Positions 1,945 through 53,481 of a stretch of DNA of 64,000 nucleotides are shown piece by piece; the stretch's first letter is position 1; each line of letters opens with the position of its first letter. The position numbers and the translations under genes were made by a program. The stretch comes from Selaginella tamariscina (lineage: Eukaryota; Streptophyta; Lycopodiopsida; Selaginellales; Selaginellaceae): contig PUQB01000107.1 in assembly GCA_003024785.1 (NCBI GenBank), positions 415,679 through 479,678 on the forward strand, in the 5' to 3' direction. Below the pieces are notes generated by a model. It had not been told where the DNA came from and ran no database searches. It saw only the letters and a list, made by a program, of their open reading frames with translations.

Positions 1945-2393
1945 ATACATTTAAGAACCAGTTATTTGTGCTCAGAATGGTCTGCTCCAAGTTTCCATGC
2001 TGACAGACACGCACTGCCACTAACTAGTTGTACTAGACAGCTGCAGGATACATGCTGCGAGTAAGTTGGAACCAGCAATAAGCGGTATTGAGGGATGTTG
2101 CTGGAGAGAAGTTAAGTGTCCAAGAAGCTGTCAAGGACTAACAAGAATGCGGCCTTAGAGACTTTCATGTCGTCTGATGAGATGGAAAGCATAAGGGACA
2201 ACCTGACAATTCCCCTTGGTTTGCAAGTTGGAGGCAGCTTGTCGTAAACTCGAGGATATGGCAAAACTAGACCACGATTCGTCGTTGGAAATGAGAATAG
2301 AGTATCTTACAAAGCATATTCATAGGATTTACACCGAATGCAGCAGAAAGATGAGGGTGCAATTGTAAGAGCCTGCTGGAATAGGATGTAAAC
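1945..2393 (+). other. Possible exon remnants next to the MULE insertion
   Basis: Two plus-strand stretches have protein-like composition. One, near 2122-2240, reads through AALETFMSSDEMESIRDNL. The other, near 2225-2368, includes LEDMAKLDHDSSLEMRIEYL. They sit in different frames with a GT-like site between them, so they could be exons of a host gene now split by the MULE that starts at 2394. I do not recognise the protein. The last 8 bases (2386-2393, atgtaaac) are the left copy of the MULE target duplication. Confidence 0.3.
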
Positions 2394-2439
2394 GAGTGTT
2401 GCATTTTGGAGGCTTGGGGCCCAGGAGGCCTGGGCTTAA

Positions 2440-2470
2440 TATTCTAGAATATTTTAGAATATTCTTTCTG
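2440..2470. promoter_or_regulatory. Heat-shock-element-like array, left MULE end
   Basis: The left terminal repeat contains TTCTAGAATATTTTAGAATA and continues to a further TTC. This is a run of alternating GAA/TTC units like plant heat-shock elements (nGAAnnTTCn). The counterpart lies at 10168-10240 at the other end. It could equally be a transposase-binding array. No function is demonstrated. Confidence 0.45.
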
Positions 2471-2568
2471 GTCGGCAATATTGGCCTCAGTCGGCAAAAT
2501 TTTTAGTAAACTGTTGTATTTCTACTTATTCTTTTTTATATTAATTAATTTATTACTCAATACATTAG

Positions 2569-5500
2569 CTAAAGTTTCTTCTTCATCTTAAGTAAAGCTG
2601 CAGTTCTCGAACCACCAGCTAGGCTTGGACGTGGAGGTGTTAGTAGGTATTTCTCTGGTCTAATGTTCTCTGCGAGCTTGTTTGTTGCCAACCTAGAGAG
2701 TTCAAACTCTTCTCGGTTCCTATAATATTCCTTCCAGCTCGACGGCAGCTAACAACGATGATCCGGTTCCGGAACCAATATCCCAGACTAGGTCGCCAGG
2801 TCTACTGAGACGCTCGATCAAAAGCTGCATGAGTCGAACACTCTTCGGTTGAATCATCATCCTGCACAAACTTCCATTAGGATAAACAAAGTAAAGTACT
2901 TCCTTACCAAGCCTCCTGAAAAGGTCGGCGGTATCGACGAGGATCGTGTTCGTCAACGCCAGAGGGTTTGGCCTCTTCGACTTCTTCTCAGAGCTTTGCA
3001 GCACCAAGAGAACCAACAAGTTATCCTGCCACATAGACCAAGTTAAACTTGAACTTGAACTGAATAGCTAGCTTAGCTTACCTTAATTTTGTCACGTATC
3101 CCCAGCCTCGTGCACGGTAGACGCTGTAAGTCCCTGCAACCTCCAAGTTGATTACCGCAGCCGCCTGAATCACCGCCAAACAGAAGGAGAACTCGCGAAG
3201 ACGACCATGAAACCACTCGCTGCCAAGTGCATTCCACTGAACTGCAAGGCCTCCTCAAACTTCACCGATCTAGCTGCACAATGTCCTTGTTGATGCTAGC
3301 ACCTCCATATACAAGCTCATTGGGCAAGTCGAGGATGATGAGGTTGAAGCCGTATTCACCTACCACTTCCTGGAACACCGTTTGTGACTCACCCGTATGT
3401 AGTTGTCAACCTGTTGTCGGAGCTTGGTGTACACCTTTCTGGAAGCACCCGGCTCGAAAAAGACCTGCTCATCTCCTCCATATCGCACACAGCCAGGTCG
3501 TAGGATCCACGGGATGCAGCCAGTGTCGGGATGAAGGTCATCAGGTCGTCCTTGATGTCCAAACCAGCTACAAGTGGCTGCACCTCATTGATTGTAAAGT
3601 CGATTGCTGGGAGGTGCTGTAGAAGAGCTTGGTCCCGCTCCCGATCCCTTTGCAGGTGTAGTTGTCTTCCACACCGTCTTCTTCATCTTGCTCTTCTTGA
3701 TAGCCTCTACTTCGTCCGGCTCCCAAACAATCGCTGGTAGATCATTGCCATGCACATCGAACAGTGAGCTCTCCCAAGCTGGTGGCTGTTGCGACGGACA
3801 GTCGAGCCAGAATGGAACATGCTCCGTTCGAACGGTGTTAGAGCTCCTCTGCTCTTCGACCACATGTGAGGCTCGCTTGTATGATCTGTCCACAGCTTCA
3901 TCTGAGACGGTGCCATTTTCTTCGCCAGTATGAACCTGTAACACAAAGTTAGTCAGTAGCAATGCTGGAATGAAAGCTTACCTCCATATCATCCGACGCG
4001 CAGACTCCTCACGCTCCAGAAACTCATTCGGCTCCATCGAATAAGTGAACCGTATGCAGTCATGGAAGGGCTGAAAGACCAGGCACTTGCTCCGAGTTCA
4101 TCTCGTCAAACCAGCTCATGAAGTCGACATCCGTTCCAACTTCTTCACCATCCTCTCGCAACCCCTTAAGGATCTGAATGGCTTCCTCGCGCACAGCCTT
4201 CCAATATAAGTCCAAGGTGAACCACTTGATCCACTCTTTGTCCTGCATGCCTGGTAGCCCAAGTGTCTGTTGTTCTGCCTTGGATTCGAGAGAGTGAGCT
4301 TGTTCAAGTATCGGAGTCGCAGCATGTTTGGAATCTTCGCCTTTGACATCGCGTACAGCTTCTCAATGCCCATCCAGCGACACTGCTTATGAGAGATGTT
4401 CGTCACCTTCTGGAACCACTCCTCCCCCAAGTCTGGGTCTATGATGAGAGGAACTTGTGCATACGCTTGTCATGCTTCTTGTACACTAGCTGCTTCAGGT
4501 TCAGCTCAACTGTGGATTGCCTTAGCACTGGTGACTGCTCTGTCGAGATCATCGTCGATCTCGTTCTGCACATAGAATAAGTTAAAAATTCTTTCCTATA
4601 AATCAAATCGAGGTTACCTTGAAAAGGATCTTTGCGCAGATCAGGTTCGGAAGAGGATGCCAAGCCGTCTTTCCTGTTGAACTCTCCTTCCACTTCCGCA
4701 CCTCAAGACGATCAACCTCCGTGAGTGACTCGAGGATTTTCTGAGTTCCTTCGTACTAGTGCAGACCGCCTTTACAGCGAGGAGAATATGTGGTAGCGTT
4801 GTTTCCACAGATGTTGCTGAAGATCTGTTCAATGAAACTGTAAGTCTAGACCTTAACAAAAAGAAAAGAAAATACTCACATGTTTATCGATTGGAACATC
4901 GAAACCAGTTGAAGATTGTCGAGGTTCTCCGTGGAGATGAAACTCGATCGAACGAATAGCCCATCGCTGGTTGTCCTCTGCATCCTCCGGTAGAGCTTCT
5001 GCAAAGCCTGTAGCCTATGGTTCCCGTCCCAGCAGCTGAACTTCCGTTTGAGAGCCTTGAAGCCCACTGTTTGTACTCCGGCTGAGTAAGAGCTTGCTCG
5101 AAAGACCGGTGCTGCTCGTACTGAACCATGTCCTTCGACAACTCCGATAGCTCCTCAGCAGTGAGTGATCTCCGATGGACAGAATGAACAAGGCCGTGTT
5201 GCGTAGATAACCAGCCTTCTTCAACGATGACACCAGCCTGTCCAAGTCCCCTGGGTTCACTCGTCGAACCACCTCGTTCGAATGCATTCTACAGATGGGC
5301 ACATCAGGAGGATCACCAAGTCCCTTGATAGTAATTTTGTCGAGCAGGTTTGCTGAGCTCTCCAAATGCAGGCTCGCCGGTATGCTGTATAACTCCTTCG
5401 GCTCCTTATCGCTCTTCGCCTTCTTGCCTTTTGATCAGCTTTCCCGCGGCCTCTCTTTTTGCTGACTGCCTCCTCCAAGTCGTCCTGCTAGCTTCAACTG

Positions 5501-5763
5501 CCTCTGTCATCTACTTGCTCGTTCAGGACTGCAACCTCAGCGGATGAAGGAGGCAACTGCGACGAGCTCTCCGGAAATCTGTGATGGTTGATGGAGGCTG
5601 CTCTGCTCAACTGGTACTACTTAGACTGAGTCACTGGAGGATCCTCCTTTGCTACATTAGATGGTTCTCCTCTCTTGCCTCGCTTGTGCTTCGATATCCT
5701 CTTCTCTTCCCGTGGCTCTTCATCAGGCGCAGTCTCTAGTAGACGTTTTGAAGCTCTCACCAT
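2569..5763 (-). pseudogene. ParB-like domain plus beta-class DNA amino-methyltransferase, spliced, decayed
   Basis: The start at 5763 (MVRASKRLLETAPDEEPREE) follows a clear intron acceptor. A basic lysine/arginine-rich region leads to a ParB-like domain: VPICRMHSNEVVRRVNPGDL at about 5300, and the hallmark WDGNHRLQALQKLY at about 5034-4990. A helical middle region follows. The last 300 residues look like a permuted (beta-class) N6-adenine/N4-cytosine methyltransferase: YDLAVCDMEEM, a motif-IV-like NLIILDLPNE (3351-3318), MHLAASGFMVVFAS, then motif I VWDIGSGTGSSLLAA (about 2795-2745). ParB-methyltransferase fusions are known from bacterial and phage DNA-modification proteins. GT-AG introns lie at 4879-4838, 4617-4566, 3981-3936 and 3081-3026, all only 42-56 bp, and across several of them the frame joins correctly (for example SIN-IFIEQIFSNI). 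Several further frame changes and stops are not explained by introns (one stop is 50 codons in), so this copy is broken. The motif-IV position is DLPN rather than DPPY. The gene diverges from the MULE transposase and lies within the MULE ends. Confidence 0.68.
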
Positions 5764-5773
5764 TTTGTAAACT

Positions 5774-5839
5774 CTGGAAAGCAAACACACAAGTCAATTG
5801 ATTAGGAGAAAAATAAAAAAAAAATCAAAGATGACTAAC
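5774..5839 (-). other. 5' UTR intron of the ParB/methyltransferase gene
   Basis: On the minus strand CCACAAG is followed by GTTAGTCATC, a T-rich tract and TTTGCTTTCCAG, then AGTTTACAAA and the ATG at 5763. This is a textbook plant-like 66-bp intron placed just before the start codon. It supports the choice of start and shows the gene was built for eukaryotic expression. Confidence 0.6.
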
Positions 5840-6430
5840 CTTGTGGCTGCCGACTCAAGCTAGATGGTGCCGACCCTCTCAGTCGGCACAGAAAAGTAGA
5901 AGAGCAAATCCTGCCGACTGAGACAGGTTGGTGCCGACCCTCTCAGACGGCACTGAGAAGAAGTATGCTGACTGAGCTAGGATGGTGCCGTCTCTCAGAC
6001 GGCACAAATGGGAAGACCCATTAACTTTAAAAAAAAAATTGTGAACGATACTTGAGCCGTAAAGCAAAAAATAAACAAATTGAAAATACCTTGTGGCTGC
6101 GATGAACCAGGATGGTGCCGTCACTCTCAGTCGCACAAATGGGAAGACCTTTATCTCTGGGATTCGACACAAATGGGAAGACCCATTAACTCTGGAAAAA
6201 AAAAACATTGTGATACGAATACTTGAGCCGCAAAGCAAAAATAAACAAACTAAAATACCTTGTGGCTGCCGACTGAACCAGGATGGTGCCGTCACTCTCA
6301 GTCGGCACAAATGGGAAGACCATTAACTCTGAAAAATAAATTATTTGAGCCGCAAATCATAAAATAAAGAAATTGCACATACCTTGTGGCGCCGACTGAG
6401 CAGAATGGTGCTGACAATCTAAATTGGCAC
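5839..6430. repeat. Central tandem array of the MULE, with repeated splice-donor-like sites
   Basis: Four units begin with CCTTGTGGC at 5839, 6089, 6258 and 6382, with lengths of about 250, 169, 124 and 49 bp. Each holds an inverted GCCGACTGA / TCAGTCGGC pair, then ACAAATGGGAAGACC, an A-rich run and TTGAGCCGCAAA. On the minus strand every unit start reads GCCACAAG followed by GTTAG, GTATT or GTATG, so the splice donor of the leader intron has been multiplied. The array lies in the presumed 5' leader of the methyltransferase gene and shares AGTCGGCA with both MULE ends. Confidence 0.75.
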
Positions 6431-6439
6431 AGAAATCTC

Positions 6440-6879
6440 GATTGATTTACTTGGGCGCTGCACGAATTGACTCGAATGATGGCGCTCCTCTCAAGCCCCT
6501 TGGAGGAGATTTCAAAACTCAGATCTGAGATTGAAAAAACCCTAGCCGTAGTGGAAACAGTAAACCCTATCTACCAAAAAACCCTAGCTGCAATGAAAAT
6601 AGTGAACCCTACGGAATAAATGTGACATTAATATTAAAATATGTGAATAATTGGTAAATGTGAAAATTTCCAAATCATAAAAGGTAGTAATTAAATTAAA
6701 TCAGTGATACTAGAGAGGACAGCATTAAGAACACTGTGAGCTGGGCAGCGTAGAATTAATTATATACAAAAGTGTATTCACGTTTATTATCAATGATTAT
6801 AATTTTTTTTGGCGAACGAGAGTGTGTTTAATCTTTTGCTTTACTTTCCTAAACCACCGATCTTTCTCCTTGCGTTGTC
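6440..6879. promoter_or_regulatory. Divergent promoter-like spacer with telo-boxes
   Basis: This spacer lies between the two divergent MULE genes. It has four AAACCCTA-type sites in 75 bases: 6537-6545, 6561-6570, 6579-6587 and 6604-6612 (the last degenerate). Telo-boxes are known in plant promoters of translation and cell-cycle genes and as Polycomb docking sites. AT-rich sequence follows up to the transposase ATG. No unambiguous TATA box stands out. Confidence 0.45.
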
Positions 6880-9800
6880 ATGGCCAGAGTTACCTATGAA
6901 GGCATTGACAAAGATTTCCTAGTCGATGAAGATGGAAATGCTTTTGTGTTTGAACATGATCTTCACATTGCTTTCAACATTCCTTGTTAGTTCAGTATAC
7001 ATGTGGTTCAATTGATGTTAGTTTCTGCGAGTTCTGAGAAGATGTGGAGTTGTTACCAAAAGGCAATGCATCAAATCAATTTGTCTTTTACACATTGTGC
7101 CCGGCTAAGGGCCCATTGTTCAGGTTGCGAACAAAGGAGCGTGAGGAATCCATGTTGGTGTGTCTTCTAAGAGCAGACAAATGTAGGATAGGGAAGGATC
7201 TCATTGGTTCGTCTGAAGTTAAACGAGTCTCTGAACTACCGCAGATATACAATGGAAATGTCATTTACAAACTTCCTCTAAAGAAAGAAAGCACAGAGAA
7301 GTACTTGGGGATGAATCGCAAGGATGGCTGCTACCATTGGACACACTCGAGCACAACACACTCGCATGTTCTGGCGCGAGTCAGTCGAAGTTCATGTGTC
7401 GGACATCTCAAATGCATCAATCCTACCTGCCCCTACTTGGCTTTTGAGAAGAAAGCAAATGAATGTCACTTCAAGGGTGCTGTGGAGAAGGCAAAGACAA
7501 TTGAGACAGGCAAAGTAATAGGCATGAAATGTAAGCATTGTGGAGAGGAGCCATTGCTAGTGCACACTTGTCCGGCTTATGTGTACTACATTCTGCCAGA
7601 CGACATTTCTTTTACAAGGTTGTTCATTCACAGATGTCACGACACACGTACTAGGTCTGGAGCATGGTTAGGTGTCATCCTGATCAATGTGGCCTTTTGG
7701 TCCAAAGTCACGCCTACTACTCCAGAGGTAGGGGGTTCAAATCCCTGGAACGTGATAACAGAGGTGTTCATCAGCATCCAATCAGCCCCTCAGTGTCAGC
7801 TTCAAACGTTCAACGAGTGATTGAGTTTCAAGCCGCGCGTGAGCTCATCTTTGAAGAACTTTTCAAGGAAGAAGGAGAAGTCTTGTACACTGGTTTACTC
7901 TCAAAACTTGAACCTCTAACAAACCATTGAAGGTATTTTTTTTTTAAATCTCTACATGCTGACGTGACCTTTCCTTTAGGACTCGGGACTGGATTACACA
8001 ATCAAGACAGAAGGAGACACACTTTAGAGAGGGTTACGAGGGTCTTCTGGAGCTGAAGACAAAGTTGCCAATACCTTTCATTCACGTCATACATGTTCCA
8101 GGGATGGAACTGCATGGTGCTGAGGAGTAGCCTCTGATCTTCAAAAGACAGTTGAGGGACCGGGTTCAAGAGTTGACTACATTAAAAGGTGTCAAAGTGG
8201 AGGAGACCTTCATGATCAATGGGTTGTTCTGGACCACACGCACCGTATACCAAACTGGGCGACAATTGGAATACACCTTTATGACCCATTGTAAGTTGTA
8301 GAACTCTTCATAACACTTTTTAATCTTTGTTATCTAATGCTCTCTTACAGTGTCAGATCCATGGTGACTATAGCTTACGCAGATATGTGCCGCGAAGATA
8401 ATGTTGCAGTGTTGAAGTTCTTGAACACAATGCTAGAGGTTTGTAAGAAACAGGGTTTGGAGAATGTCAACTTTGCTGGTTCATGTCGGATGAGGCTGAA
8501 GCGATATGGATAGCCTTGCGCCAAGTATTCAACAACAGAGAAAAGATGAAAGGGAGGGAAAGAAGTTGTTTGTTTCACTTTATGTAATCCGTGCGTCAGG
8601 TGACAAAGAAATGAATCGCAGAAGAACATCGTGAAGAACACATGAAGCTTGCTCGTGCCTGGCCTGCAGCACTGAATGAACAATCTAAGAAAGAACAACT
8701 AGCAATTCTCAAGTCTTTTTGGGAAGGACGAGCGTCAAACATTCGAGCTTTGAAGACATGGATGTCTTGGTGGATCAGGCATGAGGACCACATCTCCATG
8801 GCGGAACTGGGAGACATGACAGAAGAAGGACTCGCGAGCGTTCCAACTACAAACAATGCTGAAGTGATTCACGAGAGCAAGAAGAGCAAGATTGGCCAAA
8901 AGAGTACCACTGCTGGAGGCGACAATGTTAGACCTCACCGATGCAGTTATGTAGAGTGCAAAGGTAAAAGCGGCAATAGAAGAGAGGTATACAGGGTCAG
9001 GTCCTTTGAAGGAAACTCTGTTAAAACGAGTGCAACACAAACTCTCTGAGGGGAAAAGTGTATCTCCATCAACAATTATCAATCTGGTGGAAGGCAAGGA
9101 ACACTTGACTAGCTCAGAGTTCACGAGTACCACTAACATTTGAGTGCAAACTGTTAGGAGAACAATCACAGGAACAGAACAGTCTGATGCTCAACGTTCA
9201 CACAGACATGATGTAGAGTACACAGAGCGGTGGTCCAAAACAACAGGAGAAAGAGGTTAAGGTTTGAAGAGGTTTTGGAGAGAGAGATTGCTCAAACAGA
9301 GTGGGCGATCAGACGAATCGGAGCATCTAGTAAGGTTAAGTGTTTGGGGATGAATCAGGAAGGAACTGCTCTGTGTGGAAAACCAATCGGTTATCCAAGT
9401 AGAGTGCCAGCACCAGGATTCTATGGAAAACAAATGTACATTGATGCCTTGGGGAATGAGGAGTATGTACAACAGATGATGTGGTTCTGCCCAAAAGATT
9501 CAGGGTGTTTCACGTGGCCAAACAGCAAAATTCTTCAGTCACGAATTCCAACACCACCAATGGTTTGGCTTGTGCTCAAGGAAATGAAGCTGACAAGTGA
9601 GGAGATCAGAGAACTATAGGATGCAGGCTTTGTTTTGGAAGGTTTACAGGGATGGCATGAAGAGTAGATGAGGGTCATAAGGACAAAACACCATCGCCAC
9701 CACGTGGAGCTGGATCTACAACAATTCCACCTTTCGAAGGACGTATGGTCCGGACTCCAACAAAAATGTCTAAGGAACAAGAGAAGAATTTCCGCAAGGC

Positions 9801-10113
9801 CAAGACGTTTTTAGGTCGTGTGAGAAATGTTGAAGTGACAGTTAGAGGACGGAAGGAGGCTTTCGTTGTGTCGGCAGGAAATGACTCTGCAAAGGTGACT
9901 ATTAGTACTTATCCTCCATGCAGTTGTTTTACCTTTCAGAAGAGCAAAAGTTGGAGCCCATGTGTACACATGTACTTCGTCTACAGCCGTGTGCTTGGCT
10001 TGAACCCGGACGTCACATATTTTCTACAAAGGCGATCGCTTAGTGAGATGGAAGTCCACCGTTTGCTAGTGAATTGCAGCAGAGTTCATGACCCACCGAT
10101 GCTACAAGTATAA
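6880..10113 (+). pseudogene. MULE transposase with SWIM zinc finger, decayed
   Basis: Coding begins at an ATG at 6880 (MARVTYEGIDKDFLVDEDGN). It includes a cysteine-rich N-terminal domain with CINPTCPYLAFEKK at about 7408 and CKHCGEEPLLVHTCPAYVYY at about 7530. A GVHQHPISPSVSASNVQRVI segment follows near 7760. A MULE-like catalytic core remnant reads VTIAYADMCREDNVAVLKFL (about 8362). A SWIM finger with CxC at 9919-9927 and CxH at 9961-9969 (CSCFTF...WSPCVHMYFVY) closes the protein. SWIM after a DDE core is the Mutator transposase arrangement. The reading changes frame several times, and a tRNA-like segment interrupts it at about 7650-7760. A short intron may lie near 6988-7041. I could not place the three catalytic acidic residues with certainty. 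It shares a spacer with the divergent methyltransferase gene. Confidence 0.72.
7650..7760 (+). other. tRNA-like (pol III box) insertion in the transposase
   Basis: A perfect B box GGTTCAAATCC lies at 7734-7744, with an A-box-like TGGTTAGGTGT at 7665-7675, about 60 bases upstream as in tRNAs with a long variable part. The acceptor ends do not pair, so this is not a working tRNA gene. It falls between two stretches of transposase (FIHRCHDTR and GVHQHPIS) that would be adjacent in a MULE protein, which suggests a tRNA pseudogene or the head of a SINE. No poly(A) tail is seen. Confidence 0.5.
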
Positions 10114-10167
10114 ATGGTTTACATAAAAATGCTTTATTAAGCCAGTCGGCATATTAAAAAACTTATA

Positions 10168-10240
10168 TTTCTAGAATATTCTTGAGAATATTCTAGAATA
10201 TGCTAGAATAAACCAGGAATATCCCGAATATACTAGAATA
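10168..10240. promoter_or_regulatory. Heat-shock-element-like array, right MULE end
   Basis: TTCTAGAATATTCTTGAGAA is followed by further TTCTAGAA and CTAGAATA units. Three or more alternating TTC/GAA modules in register satisfy the heat-shock-factor site pattern. It mirrors the array at 2440-2470 inside the opposite terminal repeat. Confidence 0.45.
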
Positions 10241-10293
10241 ATATGAAGCCTCCTGAGATGGAGCCTCCTTTTCGCCGAGACCCCCATGTAAAC

Positions 10294-13236: not shown

Positions 13237-13938
13237 TTAATTAGTTTGAGACCTTGCCTCAAACTCATTCACCAACTCCATCGCGTTTTGTAGATTCTCC
13301 AATGGTTCCCATGTCGATTCGCACGCCGGATAGCCTTTCCATTTGACAAGATACTCAAACTTACGTTTTCGCGGTCCATAAACCTTCCTTTTGCCCAATA
13401 TGGATTCGACTTCGTACTCCGTACCTTCATGAACCAGCTCAGGGGGCGGACGTAAGTTTTCATATCTTTGCGGATGTTTCTCATCTTTGTGGAATGGCTC
13501 GAGCAAATTGACATGAAACACATTGTGTATTGTTCCCAACTCTGGAGGAAGATCCAACTCATAAGCCACTTTCCCTACTTGCTTCACCACCTTGTATGGA
13601 CCTATGTAGTGCGATAGAAACTTCCTCGAAAGAGTCATTGGAACCTTCAGGTTTTTGGTACTCAACAATACCATATCCCCAACCTGATACTCTACATCCC
13701 GCCGATGCTTATCGTACTGCTGACGATACCTTTCCTGTGCTGCAGCCATCGCTTGACGAGCAGCTTCCCATGTTCGATACAATTGTCCCGTGAACTCTGC
13801 TACAGATGGAACTCGATTGCTATCGTCTTTCGGTAACACCATACTCTGAGGAATACCACCCTTATTCCCAGTTAACACTTCCATCGGGCTACATCCGATT
13901 GCAGTGTGTGTCGAGTTATTGTAACATATCTCAGCCAT
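13237..13938 (-). pseudogene. Chromovirus A integrase C-terminus and chromodomain
   Basis: The reading begins in the integrase core end (AEICYNNSTHTAIGCSPMEV). It passes the GPY/F module (SHYIGPYKVVKQVGKVAYEL), which helps integrase multimerise, and ends with a chromodomain: EYEVESILGKRKVYGPRKRK then EYLVKWKGYPACESTWEPL. Chromodomains of chromoviruses bind methylated histone H3 and steer integration to heterochromatin. This is the 3' end of the pol gene, about 380 bp before the LTR. Confidence 0.88.
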
Positions 13939-13939
13939 A

Positions 13940-16095
13940 TCTAAGTGTTCAGCCCAATCAAGTTGATCACCTTGAACATAGCATCTGAGATAGTCCTCGA
14001 CTTGTCGGTTTACCCTCTCCGTTGACCATCCGTTTGTGGATGATAAGCTGTACTAAACTCAGCATCGTCCAAATTGCTTAACAACGTTCCCCAAAACTTG
14101 CCAGTAAATCGAGGATCCCGATCTGAGATCATCGTTTCCGGTAGCCCGCACTCTTACGACTTCGTGGAAGAACAACTTTGCTGCTTGTTTCATTCACTGT
14201 CTCTACAGTTGGAATGAAATGAGCAACCTTTGAAAATCGACCCACCATGAGCAGAAACCACAAGATTTTGGCAATCCCATGATAAAGTCCAAAGTAACAC
14301 TTTGAAATGGCCGCTCTGGAATCGGTATACATGTAACTTCCCAGCTCGTTTTTGCGATGATTTTCTTGTTGACATGTGGGGCATGTCTTGACATACTTGG
14401 CAACATCGTCTATCATACCCGGCCAATAGAATCCCTGTTTCAACAAAGCCAACGTCTTGCCTTCCACCATGTCCTGCCAAAGGAACGTCGTGATGCTCTC
14501 TTAATAGCCTCTCCCTCCATGTCCCTTCTGGAACATAGAGTCTCTTTTCTTTATAATAAAGAACTCCATCTCGTACTGCAAAATGGCCTGTTTGAGTGCA
14601 TCCATTCGACTTTCTATTCCTGCTGGAATATTACCATCTCTTCGTAATTGATGAACTTGTTTCCTCTTTGCCACCAGGCTCAAAGCTCCTTAGCAAACTT
14701 GTCCTGAGGATACGCCGTCACAAATTCATCCACCAAAGTTGACACGGGTGCTGACATAATACGAAGATGACCCTTTCTACTGAGTGCATCAGCTACCACA
14801 TTGTCCTTTCCCGCCTTATGTCTGATTTCAGGCTGAAATCGTGCCAACTTCTGCTGCCATCTAGCATACTTTGGTGATAGCTTCGGCTGCGTTTCAAAAT
14901 ACCTTAGAGTTACACTATCTGTCCAAACCACAGTGCCATGACTTGGAAGATAATGACGCCAATACTCCAAGGAAGCAACAATAGCATACATCTCCTTTTC
15001 GTGAGTAGGCCATCGAGTTTGCGCGGCATCTAACTTCTTCGAGAAAAAGGACACTGGATGTCCTTTCTGTTGCAATACACCACCAATTGCAAAGTCGGAA
15101 GCGTCACATTCTACTTCAAAGGGATCTTCAAAGATGGGCAACTGCAAAACTGGCTCAGAAGAGATAGCCTCTTTGAGTTTGACGAATGCACGTTGGCACT
15201 CTGGAGTCCAATGCCATGGAATGTTCTTCGTAAGATCTGTCAATGGGGCCGCTATTTCGAGTAACCCTTTATGAATCTTCGGTAATACCCTGTCAGACCA
15301 AGAAATGATCTAACTTCATGCACATCTTTTAAAGTCATCCACTCAGTAATAGCTTGAATTTTCTTTGGGTCCATGGCAACCTCCCCACCTGAGATCAAGT
15401 GTCCCAAGAAATCTATCTTGGTTTGACCAAATGCGCACTTGCTTTCTTTAGCATACAACTGGTTCTCTCTCAACCTCTGAAACACTTTTTCTAAGTGTTC
15501 CACATGTTCCTCAATTGTCGAACTGAAAATCAGAATGTCATCAATATACACCACCACGAACTCGTCTAGATAGTCTCTAAACACATCCATCATTGTGCAA
15601 AAAGTTGCTGGAGCATTGCACAACCCGAATGGCAAGACTAGAAACTCAAATGATCCATAACGCGTTCGAAAAGCGGTCTTCTCAATGTCATTCTCTGCTA
15701 CCCGAATCTGATGGTACCAGACCTCAAGTCTATTCTTGAAAAATACTTTGCTTTTGATAGCCTATCAAATAAGTCGTCCACTCGTGGAAGAGGATACTTA
15801 TTTTTATAGTTATCGCGTTCACGCATAGTCCACACACATTCGCATCGTACCATCCTTTTTCATTACAAACAAGATAGGTGCACCATATGGATCGACTAGG
15901 TCGAATGTGTCCTCGACCAACCAATTCTGTCAGCTGTCTCTTCAATTCACTAACTCTTGAGGATTCAACCGATATGGGGCTCTTGCCGGTGGAGACGAAC
16001 CTGGCAAAATCTCTATCTGTGGTCCACAACTCGACGTGGAGGTAACTCGGCGGCAAATCTTCGGCAACATCCTTAAACATGTTCAAGACTTCCAA
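13940..16095 (-). pseudogene. Chromovirus A pol region (RT, RNase H, integrase)
   Basis: The region contains the reverse-transcriptase palm ([16 protein letters not shown] and [11 protein letters not shown] near 15.55-15.63 kb) and [15 protein letters not shown]. RNase H follows (FEVECDASDFAIGGVLQQKG, then GKDNVVADALSRK near 14.79 kb). The integrase zinc-binding part reads LLKQGFYWPGMIDDVAKYVK then TCPTCQQE near 14.35 kb. Together these domains copy the element's RNA to DNA and insert it. The domain order PR-RT-RH-INT places it in Ty3/gypsy. It is a fossil with several breaks. Confidence 0.85.
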
Positions 16096-23952: not shown

Positions 23953-24030
23953 CTTCATAGTTCTCCGTTTTCCAGCTACCTTTTTCTTGATTCCTTTCCT
24001 TCATTTTCCTCCTTTTTTCTTTCCTAGATC

Positions 24031-25008
24031 ATGGCTGATTTTGAGCATTTTCAACACGAGCACCAAATGCTACTTCATGAGCTGGCCACTTTGCGCCAAG
24101 TGGTCACCGACCTGCAAGGTTCCACCACTGCGGCACATGCAGCTGCTGATGCATCCTCCAAGGCTGCTGCGCAGGCTCTCTCCCAGGCATCGGTGGTTTC
24201 CTCTTCATCAAACTTTTCTTCGGAGCCGAAGGTTAGCATGCCAGAGAAGTTCAGTGGTAATCGTGCCGATTTCCAAGGTTTCCTGAATCAGATCCGACTC
24301 TTGATCCGTATGCAACCACGGCGCTACTCGACTGATGCTCAAAAGGTGGGTCTTTTGGCATCCTTACTAAGTGGATCTCCACGGGCTTGGGTTGCCCCCT
24401 TGCTGGAGCGTGACGATCCACTGATGGAAGACTTTGAAGGTTTCGTGGCTGCCTTTGAAGCCTGTTTTGGAGATCCTGATAAGTACCGTTCTGCATGCAC
24501 GAAGTTACGGAAGCTCACTCAAGGATCCCGACCAGCTTCCGTCTATGCATCCGAATTTCAGCAACTTTGCACGAACATTCCATGGGACGAGACTGCATTG
24601 ATCGAACACTTCCGTTTTGGGTTGAGGGACGACGTGAAGGACCTTCTCCTTACGTTACCGGATGCCCAAACATTAGCGGAGATCATGCAACAAGCTGTTC
24701 GTTGCGACAACCGTTTGTTCGAGCGTCGTCAGGAAAGATCCCGTCAACAGTTCCTGCAAACCAATCCTACAGCTGTGGTACATGTTCCTGCACCACCTTC
24801 TGGAGTAGTTCCTATGGAGGTTGAGAAATCCAAGCGTGGCTCTCTTTCCGCTGCCGAGAAGCAACGTCGTCGCAGTGAGAACCTGTGCTTGTATTGTGGT
24901 GGAGCAGGACACAAGGTGGCAGATTGTCCTATTAAAGCCAGGAACTTCAAGACGCGTGAAGTCGAAGCCGAAGTTCAGTCGGAAAACTCCAATGTCCACT
25001 TCGTCTAG
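24031..25008 (+). CDS. C1 gag
   Basis: The frame is 325 residues, starting MADFEHFQHEHQMLLHEL after TTTCCTAGATC. An N-terminal helical, alanine-rich region is followed by a Ty3/gypsy capsid domain (KFSGNRADFQGFLNQIRLLI through GSPRAWVAPLLE and FEAAFEACFGDPD). A basic stretch leads to one zinc knuckle, CLYCGGAGHKVADC (CX2CX4HX4C), near residue 290. The protein would assemble the particle and bind RNA. It ends 11 bases before the pol frame opens. Confidence 0.9.
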   Translation: MADFEHFQHEHQMLLHELATLRQVVTDLQGSTTAAHAAADASSKAAAQALSQASVVSSSSNFSSEPKVSMPEKFSGNRADFQGFLNQIRLLIRMQPRRYSTDAQKVGLLASLLSGSPRAWVAPLLERDDPLMEDFEGFVAAFEACFGDPDKYRSACTKLRKLTQGSRPASVYASEFQQLCTNIPWDETALIEHFRFGLRDDVKDLLLTLPDAQTLAEIMQQAVRCDNRLFERRQERSRQQFLQTNPTAVVHVPAPPSGVVPMEVEKSKRGSLSAAEKQRRRSENLCLYCGGAGHKVADCPIKARNFKTREVEAEVQSENSNVHFV

Positions 25009-25019
25009 GAGCCGCGAAG

Positions 25020-28000
25020 TTGGACGTAGGTGCAGGCTCCATTGGTGCTGCTCATACCATCCCGTCACTTAAGTTTCCTGTACACATTCATCTTAATAAT
25101 CGAGAGCTCATGGAGTTTGCCTTGTTAGACACTGGTGCAAATGCATGCTTCATGGATGACACGTTTGCAACTCAACATGGCATTTCGGTGGTGAAGTTGA
25201 AGCGTGCAGTTCCTGTAGAGGTGGCCGATGGGCGTCTAATTGCTTCCGGTGCAGTTACCCATGCTACCGAACCTCTCTCCTGCAGGTATGGCACATTCAA
25301 CTGTTCAATTTCCTTCAACTTGATCAAGACTCGGTCGACTCCCATCATTTTGGGCATGCCATGGTTCGTTGTTGCAAATCCGCAGATCGACTGGAGGTCT
25401 AGGACACTCACGTTTTCCTCTCCAACTTCTAGGATCAATCCTGTACCTTCCTGCGTGCAGGATACATCCTTAGTATCTGAGGCAGTACAAGCTACAGGAT
25501 TGACCGTACCTGTTCCTGTACCAGTGTTGAAGACTCCTCCTCGACAGGATTCACCTCATGGCAGTTCCTCAGCACATCCGCAGGCTCTCCCCATTCCTGT
25601 AAGTTTGCGGTGTCCTGTACAGGGTTCTTCCAATCCTGTATCAGTGTCGAAGGTTCCTCCTCAACAGGATCCACCTCCTGTTGATTCGTCAGCACATTCG
25701 CAGGCTTCTTCCACTCTTGCGCAACCACGGACTCCTGTACAGGATTCTTCCAATCCTGTACACTCACGGTGTCCTGTACAGGATTCTTCCAATCCTGTAC
25801 ACTCATCAACAACCACACAGGTTTTTTCCAATCCTGCTTCTTTCTGTTACCCTGCCTCTGTTCCATCCCCCAAGATCCTTCCTCTTTTTCAGTCACAGCT
25901 CCCTCCTTCTCCTCTCCGAGTTCTTACCACTACCATGCATGAACTCGCCACTGATCCTGCCCCCTTCCACCTTTTTGCTTTTCAAGTAACTCCTACGTCC
26001 TCTCCTACCTTTCCTGTATCCGACTCCCCTGTTTTTTCTCCTTCTCCTTCTCCTTCTCCTCCTTCTTCCCTACCATCCAAGTACCACGACTTTAAGGACG
26101 TTTTTGACAAGCACAAGGCTGCAGTTCTTCCTGTTCACAGGTCCTACGACTGTCCTATTGATCTTGCGGAAGGAAAGACTCCACCATTCGGACCGATCTA
26201 TGCATTGTCACCCACAGAGTTGGAGGTTCTTCGTCAATACATCGAGGACAACTTAGGATCCGGCTTCATTCGTCACTCAAAGTCCCCTGCAGGAGCTCCT
26301 ATCTTCTTTGTCAAGAAGAAGGATGGGAGTTTACGTTTGGTGGTGGACTACAGGGGTTTGAATCAAGTCACCATTCGGAATCGGTATCCGTTGCCATTGA
26401 TCCCGGAACTTCTCGATCGGCTGCGAGGGGCAAAGGTGTTCACGAAGATCGACTTACGAGGAGCCTACAACCTTGTACGGATTCGTCCCGGCGATGAGTG
26501 GAAGACTGCCTTTCGTACAAGGTATGGACATTTTGAGTACACGGTAATGCCTTTCGGCCTTACCAATGCCCCAGCTGTATTCCAACACATGGTGAACGAC
26601 ATTTTCCGTGACTTCTTGGACCAGTTTGTGGTGATCTACCTCGACGACATCTTGATTTTCTCCAAGGACCAGGCGGCACATGACAAGCATGTACGACTAG
26701 TTTTAGAGCGGCTTCGCGAGCATGGCCTGTACGCGAAGTTGGAGAAGTGTTTTTTCGATAGGGATTCGGTGGAGTTCTTGGGCTACATCGTCTCTCCTGC
26801 TGGCGTTTCCATGGACATGCACAAGGTGAAGACCATCGTGGAGTGGGAGAGGCCCAAGTCGGTACGAGATGTACAATGTTTCCTTGGCTTTGCAAACTTC
26901 TACAGGCGGTTCATACAGGACTTCTCCAAGCGTGTACTTCCACTCACAGAACTCACCAAGCGCACAGGACTTTTCTCTTGGTCCGACAAGGCGGAACACG
27001 CGTTCACAACACTCAAGGACGTTTTCACGACAGCTCCGATTTTAGCACATCCTGACCCTTCTCATCCTTTCTTCATTGAAGCAGATGCCTCGGATTTTGC
27101 AGTAGGATCCGTCCTATCGCAAGTTGGAGAGGACAAGTTGCTTCATCCTGTAGCCTTTCACTCTCGTAAGTTCCTGTCGGCGGAGATCAACTACGAGATT
27201 CATGACAAGGAACTCAAGGCCATTGTGGATTCGTTTGAGGAATGGCGGCATTTCCTGGAAGGTGCTGCACATCCTGTACAAGTTCTTACGGATCACAAGA
27301 ACCTGGAGTACTTTCAAACGGCTCGGGTCCTCAGTCGGCGACAGGCTAGGTGGGCAGAGTTCCTATCACGTTTTGACTTCGTCATCGTCTACAGGCCCGG
27401 CTTTCGGAATGGCAAGGCGGACGCATTGTCTAGGCGCTCTTACCTTGCACCAAGCCCGGGCGATCCTGCATTTGACGGTCAAAGGCAAGTGTTGTTGGGT
27501 CCTGATCGTTTCCGGCTTGCGGCACTGCAGGTTCATCAGGCTCCAGCAAATTCAACACTCCTACAGGACGTTCGTTCGCAGTTGCCTACAGACGACTTGG
27601 GAAAGAATGTGTTCTCACACATTCATCCTGACGTTGCAAGTTCCTCTTCCTCCAGTTCCCGTCCAGACTACAACCTATTCACCATACAGGATGGACTCCT
27701 GTACCGGGAAGGTCTCCTGTACGTTCCTGTTGGTATTTCTAGGACTCGTGTGGTACAGGATTGTCATGATACCCCGGCTACAGGACATTTTGGTGTGGCC
27801 AAGACAGTGGAATTGGTGACTCGCAACTATTGGTGGCCTGGGTTGCGAGGTTTTGTGGAGAGGTTTGTACGGAGTTGTGACACTTGTAGCAGGTCGAAGA
27901 TGCCTCATCATGCACCCTCTGGTCTTCTTCGTCCTCTTCCTGTTCCGTCTGCTCCTTGGAGATCCATTTCTATGGATTTCCTCACAGATCTTCCTCCTTC

Positions 28001-29037
28001 CCGTGGATTTGATGCAGTTCTTGTGGTGGTTGACCGTTTCACCAAGCAGGCTCATTTCCTACCCTGCAACAAGACAGCTACAGGTCAGACAACTGCCGAG
28101 TTGGTGATCCGCGAGGTGTTCCGACATCATGGTCTTCCTGAGAGCATTGTTTCCGATCGAGGTCCACAATTCATGTCCAAGTTTTGGCGAGAGCTTCTTC
28201 GGAGTCTACAGGTCAAAGCGGATCTTTCTTCAGGATATCACCCACAAACCGATGGGCAGTCCGAACGCACAATTCAGACCTTAGAACAGTATCTTCGTTG
28301 CTTCATCAGTTACCAGCAGGACAACTGGTTGGACCTCCTTCCAATGGCAGAGTTTGCCTACAACAACTCCATCCACGCATCTACAGGACAGACACCTTTC
28401 TTTGCTCTTACAGGCCACCATCCACGTTTTGACTTTGCTCCTACCGCTTCTCCTTCTTCCGCTCCTGCAGTACAGGATCGTCTTCAGCATCTTCGGCAGG
28501 TACAGGATGATCTCCAGGTTCATCTTCAACAGGCACAGGAACGATACAAGCATCATGCTGATGCTCAGGGCACCTGCATACAAGATTGGTGATCTCGTGT
28601 GGCTTCTTCGTCGACACATTCGCACCAACAGGCCTTCTTCTAAGTTGGATTTTCAACGATTGGGCCCTTATAGGATCGTGGCGGAGGTAAATCCTGTAGC
28701 TTTCCGACTCGAGTTACCATCCACGGTGAAACTTCATCCTGTGTTTCACACCTCTTTGTTGGAGCCGTATCATCCTTCTTCTCTTCCTGGTCGTGTTTCT
28801 TCTCCTCCCCCTCCTGTGGTCATTGACACGGAACCTGAGTACGAAGTCGCAGCCATCCTTGACTCTCGTCTTCATCGTCACCAACTCCAATACTTGGTGG
28901 ATTGGAAAGGGTACCTGCCTACTGATCGCACTTGGGAACCTGCATCCAACTTACTCCATGCTTCTTCCAAGGTTGCTGCCTTCCATCGGCATTATCCTGC
29001 TAAACCAGGTCCCAAGACTCGTGGAACTCGTCTTTAG
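25020..29037 (+). CDS. C1 pol region (protease, RT, RNase H, integrase, chromodomain)
   Basis: Domains in order (residue numbers from the matching C2 frame): protease (FALLDTGANACFMDD, about residue 36), then a long proline/serine-rich linker (about 145-350) full of PVQDSSNPV-type units. RT follows (LVVDYRGLNQ, VMPFGLTNAPAVFQ, VVIYLDDILIFS at about 540), then RNase H (FIEADASDFAVGSVLSQVG). Next come the integrase zinc finger (H-H and CDTCSRSK) and core (SMDFLTDLPPS, SDRGPQF, GYHPQTDGQSERT), the GPY module, and a C-terminal chromodomain (EYEVAAILDSRLHRHQLQYL then VDWKGYLPTDRTWEP, about 1276-1320). No ATG opens the frame, so expression depends on the gag-pol junction. Confidence 0.93.
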
Positions 29038-40883: not shown

Positions 40884-41857
40884 ATGGCTGATTTTGAGCA
40901 TTTTAACACGAGCACCAAATGCTACTTCATGAGCTGGCCACTTTGCGCCAAGTGGTCACCGACCTGCAAGGTTCCACCACTGCGGCACATGCAGCTGCTG
41001 ATGCATCCCCAAGGCTGCTGCGCAGGCTCTCTCCCAGGCATCGGTGGTTTCCTCTTCATCAAACTTTTCTTCGGAGCCGAAGGTTAGCATGCCAGAGAAG
41101 TTCAGTGGTAATCGTGCCGATTTCCAAGGTTTCCTGAATCAGATCCGACTCTTGATCCGTATGCAACCACGGCGCTACTCGACTGATGCTCAAAAGGTGG
41201 GTCTTTTGGCATCCTTACTAAGTGGATCTCCACGGGCTTGGGTTGCCCCCTTGCTGGAGCGTGACGATCCACTGATGGAAGACTTTGAAGGTTTCGTGGC
41301 TTGCCTGAAGCCTGTTTTGGAGATCCTGATAAGTACGTTCTGCATGCACGAAGTTACGGAAGCTCACTCAAGGATCCGACAGCTTCGTCTAATGCATCCG
41401 AATTTCAGCAAACTTTGCACGAACAATTCCATGGGACGAGACTGCATTGATCGAACACTTCCGTTTTGGGTTGAGGGACGACGTGAAGGACCTTCTCCTT
41501 ACGTTACCGGATGCCCAAACATTAGCGGAGATCATGCAACAAGCTGTTCGTTGCGACAACCGTTTGTTCGAGCGTCGTCAGGAAAGATCCCGTCAACAGT
41601 TCCTGCAAACCAATCCTACAGCTGTGGTACATGTTCCTGCACCACCTTCTGGAGTAGTTCCTATGGAGGTTGAGAAATCCAAGCGTGGCTCTCTTTCCGC
41701 TGCCGAGAAGCAACGTCGTCGCAGTGAGAACCTGTGCTTGTATTGTGGTGGAGCAGGACACAAGGTGGCAGATTGTCCTATTAAAGCCAGGAACTTCAAG
41801 ACGCGTGAAGTCGAAGCCGAAGTTCAGTCGGAAAACTCCAATGTCCACTTCGTCTAG
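40884..41857 (+). pseudogene. C2 gag region
   Basis: Nearly the same sequence as the C1 gag, with the capsid domain (KFSGNRADFQGFLNQ) and the CLYCGGAGHKVADC zinc knuckle present. It lies 11 bases before the pol frame, as in C1. Confidence 0.85.
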
Positions 41858-41868
41858 GAGCCGCGAAG

Positions 41869-44800
41869 TTGGACGTAGGTGCAGGCTCCATTGGTGCTGC
41901 TCATACCATCCCGTCACTTAAGTTTCCTGTACACATTCATCTTAATAATCGAGAGCTCATGGAGTTTGCCTTGTTAGACACTGGTGCAAATGCATGCTTC
42001 ATGGATGACACGTTTGCAACTCAACATGGCATTTCGGTGGTGAAGTTGAAGCGTGCAGTTCCTGTAGAGGTGGCCGATGGGCGTCTAATTGCTTCCGGTG
42101 CAGTTACCCATGCTACCGAACCTCTCTCCTGCAGGTATGGCACATTCAACTGTTCAATTTCCTTCAACTTGATCAAGACTCGGTCGACTCCCATCATTTT
42201 GGGCATGCCATGGTTCGTTGTTGCAAATCCGCAGATCGACTGGAGGTCTAGGACACTCACGTTTTCCTCTCCAACTTCTAGGATCAATCCTGTACCTTCC
42301 TGCGTGCAGGATACATCCTTAGTATCTGAGGCAGTACAAGCTACAGGATTGACCGTACCTGTTCCTGTACCAGTGTTGAAGACTCCTCCTCGACAGGATT
42401 CACCTCATGGCAGTTCCTCAGCACATCCGCAGGCTCTCCCCATTCCTGTAAGTTTGCGGTGTCCTGTACAGGGTTCTTCCAATCCTGTATCAGTGTCGAA
42501 GGTTCCTCCTCAACAGGATCCACCTCCTGTTGATTCGTCAGCACATTCGCAGGCTTCTTCCACTCTTGCGCAACCACGGACTCCTGTACAGGATTCTTCC
42601 AATCCTGTACACTCACGGTGTCCTGTACAGGATTCTTCCAATCCTGTACACTCATCAACAACCACACAGGTTTTTTCCAATCCTGCTTCTTTCTGTTACC
42701 CTGCCTCTGTTCCATCCCCCAAGATCCTTCCTCTTTTTCAGTCACAGCTCCCTCCTTCTCCTCTCCGAGTTCTTACCACTACCATGCATGAACTCGCCAC
42801 TGATCCTGCCCCCTTCCACCTTTTTGCTTTTCAAGTAACTCCTACGTCCTCTCCTACCTTTCCTGTATCCGACTCCCCTGTTTTTTCTCCTTCTCCTTCT
42901 CCTTCTCCTCCTTCTTCCCTACCATCCAAGTACCACGACTTTAAGGACGTTTTTGACAAGCACAAGGCTGCAGTTCTTCCTGTTCACAGGTCCTACGACT
43001 GTCCTATTGATCTTGCGGAAGGAAAGACTCCACCATTCGGACCGATCTATGCATTGTCACCCACAGAGTTGGAGGTTCTTCGTCAATACATCGAGGACAA
43101 CTTAGGATCCGGCTTCATTCGTCACTCAAAGTCCCCTGCAGGAGCTCCTATCTTCTTTGTCAAGAAGAAGGATGGGAGTTTACGTTTGGTGGTGGACTAC
43201 AGGGGTTTGAATCAAGTCACCATTCGGAATCGGTATCCGTTGCCATTGATCCCGGAACTTCTCGATCGGCTGCGAGGGGCAAAGGTGTTCACGAAGATCG
43301 ACTTACGAGGAGCCTACAACCTTGTACGGATTCGTCCCGGCGATGAGTGGAAGACTGCCTTTCGTACAAGGTATGGACATTTTGAGTACACGGTAATGCC
43401 TTTCGGCCTTACCAATGCCCCAGCTGTATTCCAACACATGGTGAACGACATTTTCCGTGACTTCTTGGACCAGTTTGTGGTGATCTACCTCGACGACATC
43501 TTGATTTTCTCCAAGGACCAGGCGGCACATGACAAGCATGTACGACTAGTTTTAGAGCGGCTTCGCGAGCATGGCCTGTACGCGAAGTTGGAGAAGTGTT
43601 TTTTCGATAGGGATTCGGTGGAGTTCTTGGGCTACATCGTCTCTCCTGCTGGCGTTTCCATGGACATGCACAAGGTGAAGACCATCGTGGAGTGGGAGAG
43701 GCCCAAGTCGGTACGAGATGTACAATGTTTCCTTGGCTTTGCAAACTTCTACAGGCGGTTCATACAGGACTTCTCCAAGCGTGTACTTCCACTCACAGAA
43801 CTCACCAAGCGCACAGGACTTTTCTCTTGGTCCGACAAGGCGGAACACGCGTTCACAACACTCAAGGACGTTTTCACGACAGCTCCGATTTTAGCACATC
43901 CTGACCCTTCTCATCCTTTCTTCATTGAAGCAGATGCCTCGGATTTTGCAGTAGGATCCGTCCTATCGCAAGTTGGAGAGGACAAGTTGCTTCATCCTGT
44001 AGCCTTTCACTCTCGTAAGTTCCTGTCGGCGGAGATCAACTACGAGATTCATGACAAGGAACTCAAGGCCATTGTGGATTCGTTTGAGGAATGGCGGCAT
44101 TTCCTGGAAGGTGCTGCACATCCTGTACAAGTTCTTACGGATCACAAGAACCTGGAGTACTTTCAAACGGCTCGGGTCCTCAGTCGGCGACAGGCTAGGT
44201 GGGCAGAGTTCCTATCACGTTTTGACTTCGTCATCGTCTACAGGCCCGGCTTTCGGAATGGCAAGGCGGACGCATTGTCTAGGCGCTCTTACCTTGCACC
44301 AAGCCCGGGCGATCCTGCATTTGACGGTCAAAGGCAAGTGTTGTTGGGTCCTGATCGTTTCCGGCTTGCGGCACTGCAGGTTCATCAGGCTCCAGCAAAT
44401 TCAACACTCCTACAGGACGTTCGTTCGCAGTTGCCTACAGACGACTTGGGAAAGAATGTGTTCTCACACATTCATCCTGACGTTGCAAGTTCCTCTTCCT
44501 CCAGTTCCCGTCCAGACTACAACCTATTCACCATACAGGATGGACTCCTGTACCGGGAAGGTCTCCTGTACGTTCCTGTTGGTATTTCTAGGACTCGTGT
44601 GGTACAGGATTGTCATGATACCCCGGCTACAGGACATTTTGGTGTGGCCAAGACAGTGGAATTGGTGACTCGCAACTATTGGTGGCCTGGGTTGCGAGGT
44701 TTTGTGGAGAGGTTTGTACGGAGTTGTGACACTTGTAGCAGGTCGAAGATGCCTCATCATGCACCCTCTGGTCTTCTTCGTCCTCTTCCTGTTCCGTCTG

Positions 44801-52839: not shown

Positions 52840-53481
52840 TCAAGCCACGATCCAGGAAACAGGAAGAGAGCAGGATTCCAAGGACATGAAGGCTTGACTC
52901 AGGAACAGGACCGAGAGCAGGACAAGAACCAGGAATAGGAACATGACGGATCTAGGAGTAGGACAGGATTAGGATAGGATCCGGGAGCAAGACAGGAAAG
53001 CATAGGATAGGATCCGGGAGCAAAACAGGAACAGGACAGGATCCCGGAGCAGGACAGGATCCAGGAACAGGACAGGAAATAGGAGCGAGACAGGAACAGG
53101 ACAGGAAACAAGACAAGACAAGATTGATCGTAGTAAGACTGGTGTTGATAGTAACTGATTGTACAACAATTAGGTCGGAGCTTTTATGCTCACAACTCCA
53201 AGAGCTAATCTAGGCATGCATGCAAAAGTGGTTGCATGCATGCAAAAGTGATTGCATGCATGCAGAGGCTAAGATGAGTCCACATGTCCCTTATCCTCTA
53301 GGCATATCCTGTGGCATATCCTGTAGGAATATCCTGCAACCGAATCCTGTGTCCGGAATCCTGGTAGGAGTATCCTGTACGAAAATCCTGCAACCCATAT
53401 CCTGTATCCGGAATCCTATAGGAAAGTCCTGCAACCCATGTCCTGTATCCGGAATCCTGTATTCTGTATCGGGTCGTGACA
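52840..53481 (-). repeat. Solo LTR of chromovirus family C
   Basis: This is the reverse complement of the C1/C2 LTR, 642 bp and nearly identical, flanked by GCACC on both sides (52835-52839, 53482-53486). An intact target duplication with one LTR shows that a full element inserted and then lost its interior by LTR-LTR recombination. Confidence 0.93.

Follow-up and report, generated by a model that had tools for sequence, protein, structure and literature searches.

A close described counterpart of the element treated here is Sola1-1_Ec32 of the brown alga Ectocarpus, in which a 1104-aa N4/N6 DNA methyltransferase (MTase) and ParB-like protein is encoded opposite the transposase; the available text suggests that such proteins may attach to the transposon that encodes them and modify it, and cites cases from green and red algae (PMC12477816). 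A comparable arrangement is found in a 64,000-nucleotide stretch of the lycophyte Selaginella tamariscina (contig PUQB01000107.1 of assembly GCA_003024785.1, positions 415,679 to 479,678), called the window throughout, of which positions 2394-10285 are a decayed copy, belonging to what is here termed family A, of a DNA transposon with two genes, one for a transposase and one MTase-like. Iyer 2011 and Petroll 2025 are said to have treated the similar proteins of green and red algal transposons. Compared by description, the Selaginella protein resembles that of Sola1-1_Ec32 in being an N4/N6 MTase-type protein of about 1000 aa (1015 aa here) encoded opposite a transposase, and differs in that its carrier is Mutator-like instead of Sola, its host is a lycophyte instead of a brown alga, its motif IV reads DLPN, arrays of CAGTCGGCA accompany it, and its ParB-like part is only suggestive.

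VANC of the Arabidopsis VANDAL elements, which are Mutator elements, offers a second comparison. Its targets, as the available part of the paper describes them, are a 9-bp motif in dense noncoding arrays within VANDAL elements, the number of which changes quickly (PMC5735166). Shared with VANC are an accessory gene and dense short-motif arrays of variable size in the noncoding DNA of the element. VANC proteins contain DUF1985 and DUF287 according to a figure legend (PMC5735166), whereas neither was found in a Pfam scan of the whole MTase-like protein of a second Selaginella family (family B); moreover, VANC leads to loss of methylation, whereas the protein described here is methyltransferase-like. 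Phage and bacterial ParB-MTases (PF02195 plus PF01555, e.g. P0001 of 392 aa) have the same permuted amino-MTase, with motif IV before motif I, but the Selaginella gene is unlike them in having DLPN and not DPPY, a long extra middle part, introns, and a ParB similarity that is only suggestive. A bacterial ParB-methylase is stated, in the available text, to nick DNA via its ParB part (PMC5512222). DIRS1-like retrotransposons are likewise eukaryotic mobile elements with a standing MTase gene, described in the available text as an inactive N6-adenine methylase (PMC3537659), which calls for caution in assuming activity here; unlike the present element, they are retroelements with a tyrosine recombinase and another MTase context.

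In a narrow literature search, the words "methyltransferase" and "methylase" were absent from the main text of a survey of 1631 Mutator-like elements (MULEs; PMC6446971) and from the available text of a 2026 gene-capture review (PMC13317346). An earlier note on this DNA, written from the letters alone, had stated that no MULE with such a gene was known; this agrees with the literature searched, although a ParB-MTase opposite a transposase had already been published for Sola1 (PMC12477816). The ParB-MTase kind is known from algal transposons, and this is apparently its first occurrence in a Mutator-like element. Within the reach of the searches, novelty lies in the Mutator-like carrier, the land-plant host, the DLPN common to both families and the motif arrays that they share.

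A standing accessory gene in two transposon families

A search of the 300.7-Mb genome (1391 contigs) with the N6_N4_Mtase family as query gave 739 candidate MTase-exon places; 150 were scored, all 150 above the curated cut-off. Twenty loci of 10 kb were fetched first, then three more, and then two more. All loci were chosen by their MTase exon, and co-occurrence here means presence of the transposase given the MTase. Of the 23 MTase loci fetched as L009-L031, 19 contained a transposase, 17 of them with at least 80% coverage and two (L010, L016) in part, and the two genes lay on opposite strands in 18 of these 19. Both ends of the element were detected with 60-bp end probes in 14/23 loci. A further sample, nearly all family B, comprised 20 of the other 127 scored matches, taken by rank (C330, near a contig end, and C964 were left out), and 1.2 kb per locus was read at the expected transposase position, 5.7-6.9 kb away; a transposase on the opposite strand was present in 19 of these 20. 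Together, the transposase was at least partly present in 38 of the 43 distinct MTase loci examined, and the MTase-like gene is almost certainly a standing accessory gene of the transposon.

Family A comprises nine loci (L009-L013, L016, L018, L026, L027) with 87-96% similarity to the window over long pieces. Family B, to which 11 of the first 20 loci and five later ones belong, is a second, younger family of common layout, with about 67% nucleotide identity to the window and loci mostly 96-99% identical to L022. Gene order and alignment-visible introns are common to both families, the introns seen in family A alignments lying at the same places as those of family B. Family B copies start with GAGTCCCGACAAAAA, end with GCCAATCCTC and are flanked by 9-bp duplications, which, read by eye in nine copies at both ends, were exact in six (L015, L017, L023, L024, L025, L028), had one mismatch in L019 and L021, and were poor in L022. 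Among five family A copies including that of the window, also read by eye, duplications of 9 bp were exact in L012 and L018; the duplication was 8 bp in L009 and imperfect in L027 and the window. Family B is high-copy and apparently recently mobile. A third family was suspected from L050 and L053 (83-89% identity), but both belong to family B, with 98-99% nucleotide identity; broken frames account for the lower values. L014 holds two family B MTase genes, inverted relative to each other, with no transposase in 10 kb; it either arose by rearrangement or is a fold-back artefact of assembly. L012, of family A, retains both ends but contains an internal block in inverse orientation.

The MTase-like gene of family B has six exons, its introns measuring 52-60 bp, and reads open over 1015 aa in L022 and L070, and the three-exon transposase gene is open over 1018 aa in L028. 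Unfiltered codon counting, in which the L022 and L028 genes were compared with six of ten family A sequences, gave synonymous (pS) and nonsynonymous (pN) differences of 0.82-0.86 and 0.29-0.34 for the MTase-like gene in five copies, 0.81 and 0.40 in the window, and 0.78-0.80 and 0.23-0.32 for the transposase. Three copies outside this set (L010, L013, L016), counted with an identity filter, gave pS 0.84-0.85 and pN 0.27-0.30 for the MTase-like gene; L011 is the family A sequence left uncounted. Mismatches in L027 by codon position were 0.35, 0.26 and 0.63 in the MTase-like gene and 0.33, 0.24 and 0.61 in the transposase. Because nonsynonymous differences in the MTase-like gene of L027 were 0.28, 0.25 and 0.29 in the ParB-like, middle and MTase parts, compared with 0.48 over the 76 codons of its low-complexity N-terminus, the protein outside the N-terminus has been conserved. 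Synonymous divergence is saturated, so no ratio of nonsynonymous to synonymous rates is given. These counts indicate that the MTase-like gene is under purifying selection, much like the transposase.

In both families the MTase-like gene has been retained by selection as a regular component of the element and is not a chance capture. Several claims of the earlier note are borne out at this point: the arrangement is not due to chance, as further genomic copies show it too, flanked by 9-bp target duplications; the MTase-like gene, which it had argued was no chance fragment, occurs in two families, under selection and together with the transposase; and the search for further copies that it had proposed returned the transposase beside the MTase-like gene in most loci of both samples.

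Domains of the two proteins

Profile comparison firmly identifies the MTase domain. Pfam PF01555 scored 36.4 bits in the family B protein against a cut-off of 26.7 (E 6.9e-9), matching profile positions 165-220 of 221, the motif I half, and PHROG_67 DNA methyltransferase matched at E 4.9e-12; the MTase exon of the window alone reached 20.1 bits with PF01555, below the 26.7 cut-off. Profile-profile comparison with diverse phage ParB-MTases recovered the MTase domain at 95.3% probability (E 2.3e-8, 204 columns) and aligned FNLVIFDLPN to their ADLLLTDPPY. Matches of the domain to PDB sequences, such as MboIIA and CcrM, were weak. Motif I, at which the window shares 81% of 42 residues with family B, is well conserved, which suggests that binding of S-adenosylmethionine (SAM) persists. 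A search for homologues in 5.8 billion proteins, limited to 0.55-1.75 times the query length and with one query consisting of the first 500 residues only, gave no match at E 0.001.

The transposase is less readily placed. The SWIM domain claimed for it is represented by SWIM-like cysteines and a histidine, but its Pfam score of 14.5 bits is below the curated cut-off of 19.6; besides SWIM, comparison with Pfam and PDB sequences gave only weak, unrelated-looking matches. No MULE-type Pfam match was obtained at E up to 1 for the whole protein and 10 for pieces, with filters that drop most weak matches. Its WVVLDHT and FMSDEAEAIW motifs are D1-like and D2-like, and a putative CLFH motif is also present. 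The target-site duplications have the length characteristic of MULEs (8-11 bp, mostly 9), and the terminal inverted repeats are short and imperfect, 13 of 21 positions matching by eye in family A and 17 of 24 in family B; MULE groups without terminal inverted repeats are noted in the available text of PMC6446971. The Mutator-like character proposed at the outset has the 9-bp duplications in its favor and the lack of a Pfam MULE match against it, and a Mutator-type assignment, which rests on those duplications and the putative D1-like, D2-like and CLFH motifs of the transposase, is tentative.

The window copy and its surroundings

Positions within the window are collected in Table 1. MTase-like exons were placed by tblastn, exon by exon, with the intact L022 family B protein as query, and the start of exon 1 is a reading by eye. 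The flanking repeat, the imperfect inverted ends and the oppositely stranded genes reported earlier are all present. Both genes carry frameshifts and stops and form a pseudogene pair. Repeats of the AATATTCTAGAATATT type lie inside both ends, at 2438-2465 and 10169-10240, and are common to families A and B.

Table 1. Features of the family A copy in the window (window coordinates)
Feature	Position	Strand	Details
Left target-site duplication copy	2386..2393	.	ATGTAAAC (9 bp GATGTAAAC with one mismatch)
Left terminal region	2394..2500	+	imperfect inverted terminus GAGTGT..., AATATTC/CTAGAATATT repeats, CAGTCGGC at 2488
MTase-like gene, decayed	2575..5763	-	6 exons: ~5763-4882 (ParB-like region), 4823-4618, 4565-3984, 3934-3081 (motif IV DLPN), 3025-2915, 2860-2575 (motif I)
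WDIGSGTGSS	2756..2785	-	motif I (SAM-binding motif)
NLIILDLPNE	3316..3345	-	non-canonical motif IV
CWDGNHRLQAL	5002..5034	-	ParB/Srx-like motif
Central intergenic repeat region	5848..6420	.	between divergent genes; CAGTCGGC/GCCGACTG sites at 5880, 5913, 6268, 6299, 6391
Transposase gene, decayed	6880..10113	+	3 exons: 6880-7927, 7981-8288, 8352-10113
Transposase motifs		+	WVVLDHT 8220, FMSDEAEAIW 8480, CLFHFM 8567
SWIM-like cysteines/histidine	9916-9978	+	PCSC 9916, SPCVH 9955
Right terminal region	10143..10285	+	CAGTCGGC at 10143, CTAGAATATT repeats, imperfect inverted terminus ...CGCCGAGACCC
Right target-site duplication copy	10286..10293	.	ATGTAAAC

Judged by open reading frames, the rest of the window is largely retroelement sequence. 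Two near-identical retrotransposon coding regions lie at 24028-29037 and 41002-45894 (+), the first with a frame break at about 28.6 kb, and a further polyprotein, split over several frames, lies at 13237-15761 (-); all three are presumably of Ty3/gypsy type. TCCTG-rich tandem repeats at about 23.3-23.9, 29.1-29.6, 40.2-40.7 and 45.9-46.5 kb are perhaps part of the long terminal repeats of both retrotransposons, and repeats of the same type in inverse orientation at 52948-53458 are perhaps a solo long terminal repeat.

Motif arrays and the possible role of the MTase-like gene

The central array between the divergent genes has different units in families A and B, and both hold CAGTCGGCA or its complement; in family B this core lies within the palindrome CAGTCGGCATGCCGACTG. 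Counted in eight elements (four A, four B), CAGTCGGCA occurs 5 to 25 times per element and CAGTCGGC 6-17 times in A and 19-27 times in B, with most sites in the central array and few at the ends; the size of the array varies among copies. All eight have a CAGTCGGC site at a distance of about 80-150 bp from the left end; close to the right end, three of four A copies have the site, and 7/8 elements have it whole or nearly whole. Within the window, seven CAGTCGGC sites fall in the element and two in the remaining 56.1 kb. The noncoding parts contain CAGTCGGCA 16 times in L018 (A) and 21 times in L024 (B). When the B noncoding parts were put through 200 Markov shuffles, shared 9-mers never occurred more than 4 times; this null has no tandem duplication, and arrays inflate counts against it. 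More striking is that two dissimilar arrays have a core in common, which also occurs close to the left ends.

Overall, the best explanation is probably a two-gene Mutator-type transposon with a self-targeting epigenetic regulator. Gene 1 encodes the transposase, and gene 2, divergent from it, a protein of about 1000 aa with a putative ParB/Srx-like N-terminal region, a middle part and a C-terminal permuted amino-MTase, in which the SAM-binding motif is intact and the catalytic motif reads DLPN. This protein may recognize the element via CAGTCGGCA in the inter-promoter central array and in the end regions, where DNA would be modified or occupied, so that the genes of the element would be kept expressed or its copies marked; by analogy, it would be an element-specific epigenetic regulator, functionally VANC-like. 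We give roughly even chances to the gene 2 protein being a regulator that acts on the element's own DNA, and slightly less than even chances to real methyl transfer to DNA, given DLPN. A fuller version is put forward only tentatively, at less than even chances: a self-recognition module of a land-plant Mutator-type element, namely a bacterial-derived ParB-MTase with a reworked DLPN active site, would read the CAGTCGGCA arrays around its promoter as well as the sites at the ends and write or guard an epigenetic state, as an independent invention of the VANC function.

Several results weigh against this explanation. No transposase lay within the stretch read in four of the 23 fetched loci (L011, L013, L014, L020) and in one of the 20 further loci, and in the rearranged L012 most of the transposase is on the MTase strand. 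Both genes were open in none of 16 family B copies checked, some of them translatable only in part; assembly errors may contribute to this lack. Motif IV, which together with motif I had been read as that of an amino-MTase, is DLPN in place of [DNS]PP[YFW] in the window and wherever it was found among the 23 loci, which is in 22 of them and in both families (L013 showed no motif IV), so that, although the domain is significant, enzyme activity is doubtful and may be absent. The ParB domain also claimed has its motif CWDGNHRLQAL, but no match to it, PF02195 included, was found in Pfam, PHROGs and NCBIfam scans; hhalign with a narrow ParB profile gave E 0.26 and, with diverse phage sequences, E 0.0084 at 4.7% probability, a score as high being reached by 1 of 200 shuffles, and an AlphaFold2 (AF2) model of the region (pLDDT 40.6) was too poor for a fold search. 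The ParB/Srx-like character of the N-terminal region is suggestive. At the right end, the motif site lacks one base in 4/4 family B copies (AGTCGGCA) and is absent from L009. Finally, the transposase, and not the gene 2 protein, may bind CAGTCGGCA.

Among the alternatives, one with appreciable though less than even chances is that the MTase fold is catalytically dead and kept as a scaffold for binding DNA or SAM, with gene 2 encoding a transposition cofactor or an end-binding protein, as in the DIRS1-type methylase. The near-universal DLPN for DPPY and the position of CAGTCGGC near all eight left ends and three of four family A right ends speak for it, whereas the conservation of motif I suggests that SAM is still bound. 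KsgA/Dim1 enzymes, moreover, are functional with NLPY, and leucine at the second position is tolerated elsewhere, which counts against a dead fold. The DIRS1-like elements, whose N6-adenine methylase is inactive as far as the available text goes (PMC3537659), again provide a precedent in its favor.

Active self-methylation, with N6-methyladenine (6mA) or N4-methylcytosine (4mC) placed on the ends or promoter of the element for protection or activation, is the reading of the earlier note and is possible but would be somewhat surprising: the significant permuted amino-MTase domain and the purifying selection on gene 2 are consistent with it, and the same was proposed for the Ectocarpus ParB-MTase gene in the available text of PMC12477816, whereas a motif IV without the aromatic residue and one proline argues against it. 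A reading of similar standing, also doubtful, takes CAGTCGGCA as the binding site of the transposase, gene 2 having an unrelated role, for example a host-directed one. Element ends are the usual binding place of transposases, and CAGTCGGC lies near every left end counted and, whole or nearly so, near most right ends; against this reading, the bulk of the sites fall between the two genes. Chance juxtaposition or capture of the gene by one copy, in the manner of Pack-MULEs, is refuted by the two families, selection and co-occurrence and retains hardly any probability: plant transposons including Mutator elements do capture genes (available text of PMC13317346, PMC6446971), but the same gene, order and introns are found in two families despite saturated synonymous divergence, and most MTase loci have the transposase at least in part.

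The presence of 6mA or 4mC in the DNA of land plants, and the enzymes responsible, are debated. With an open, selected MTase-like gene and a short candidate target, self-marking of a transposon by a bacterial-type enzyme becomes directly testable in Selaginella. If confirmed, the element would add one more transposon type to those with accessory genes of the ParB-MTase kind. It also gives VANC a possible companion as an accessory gene accompanied by motif arrays. Gene 2 may help the transposon to control or mark its own copies.

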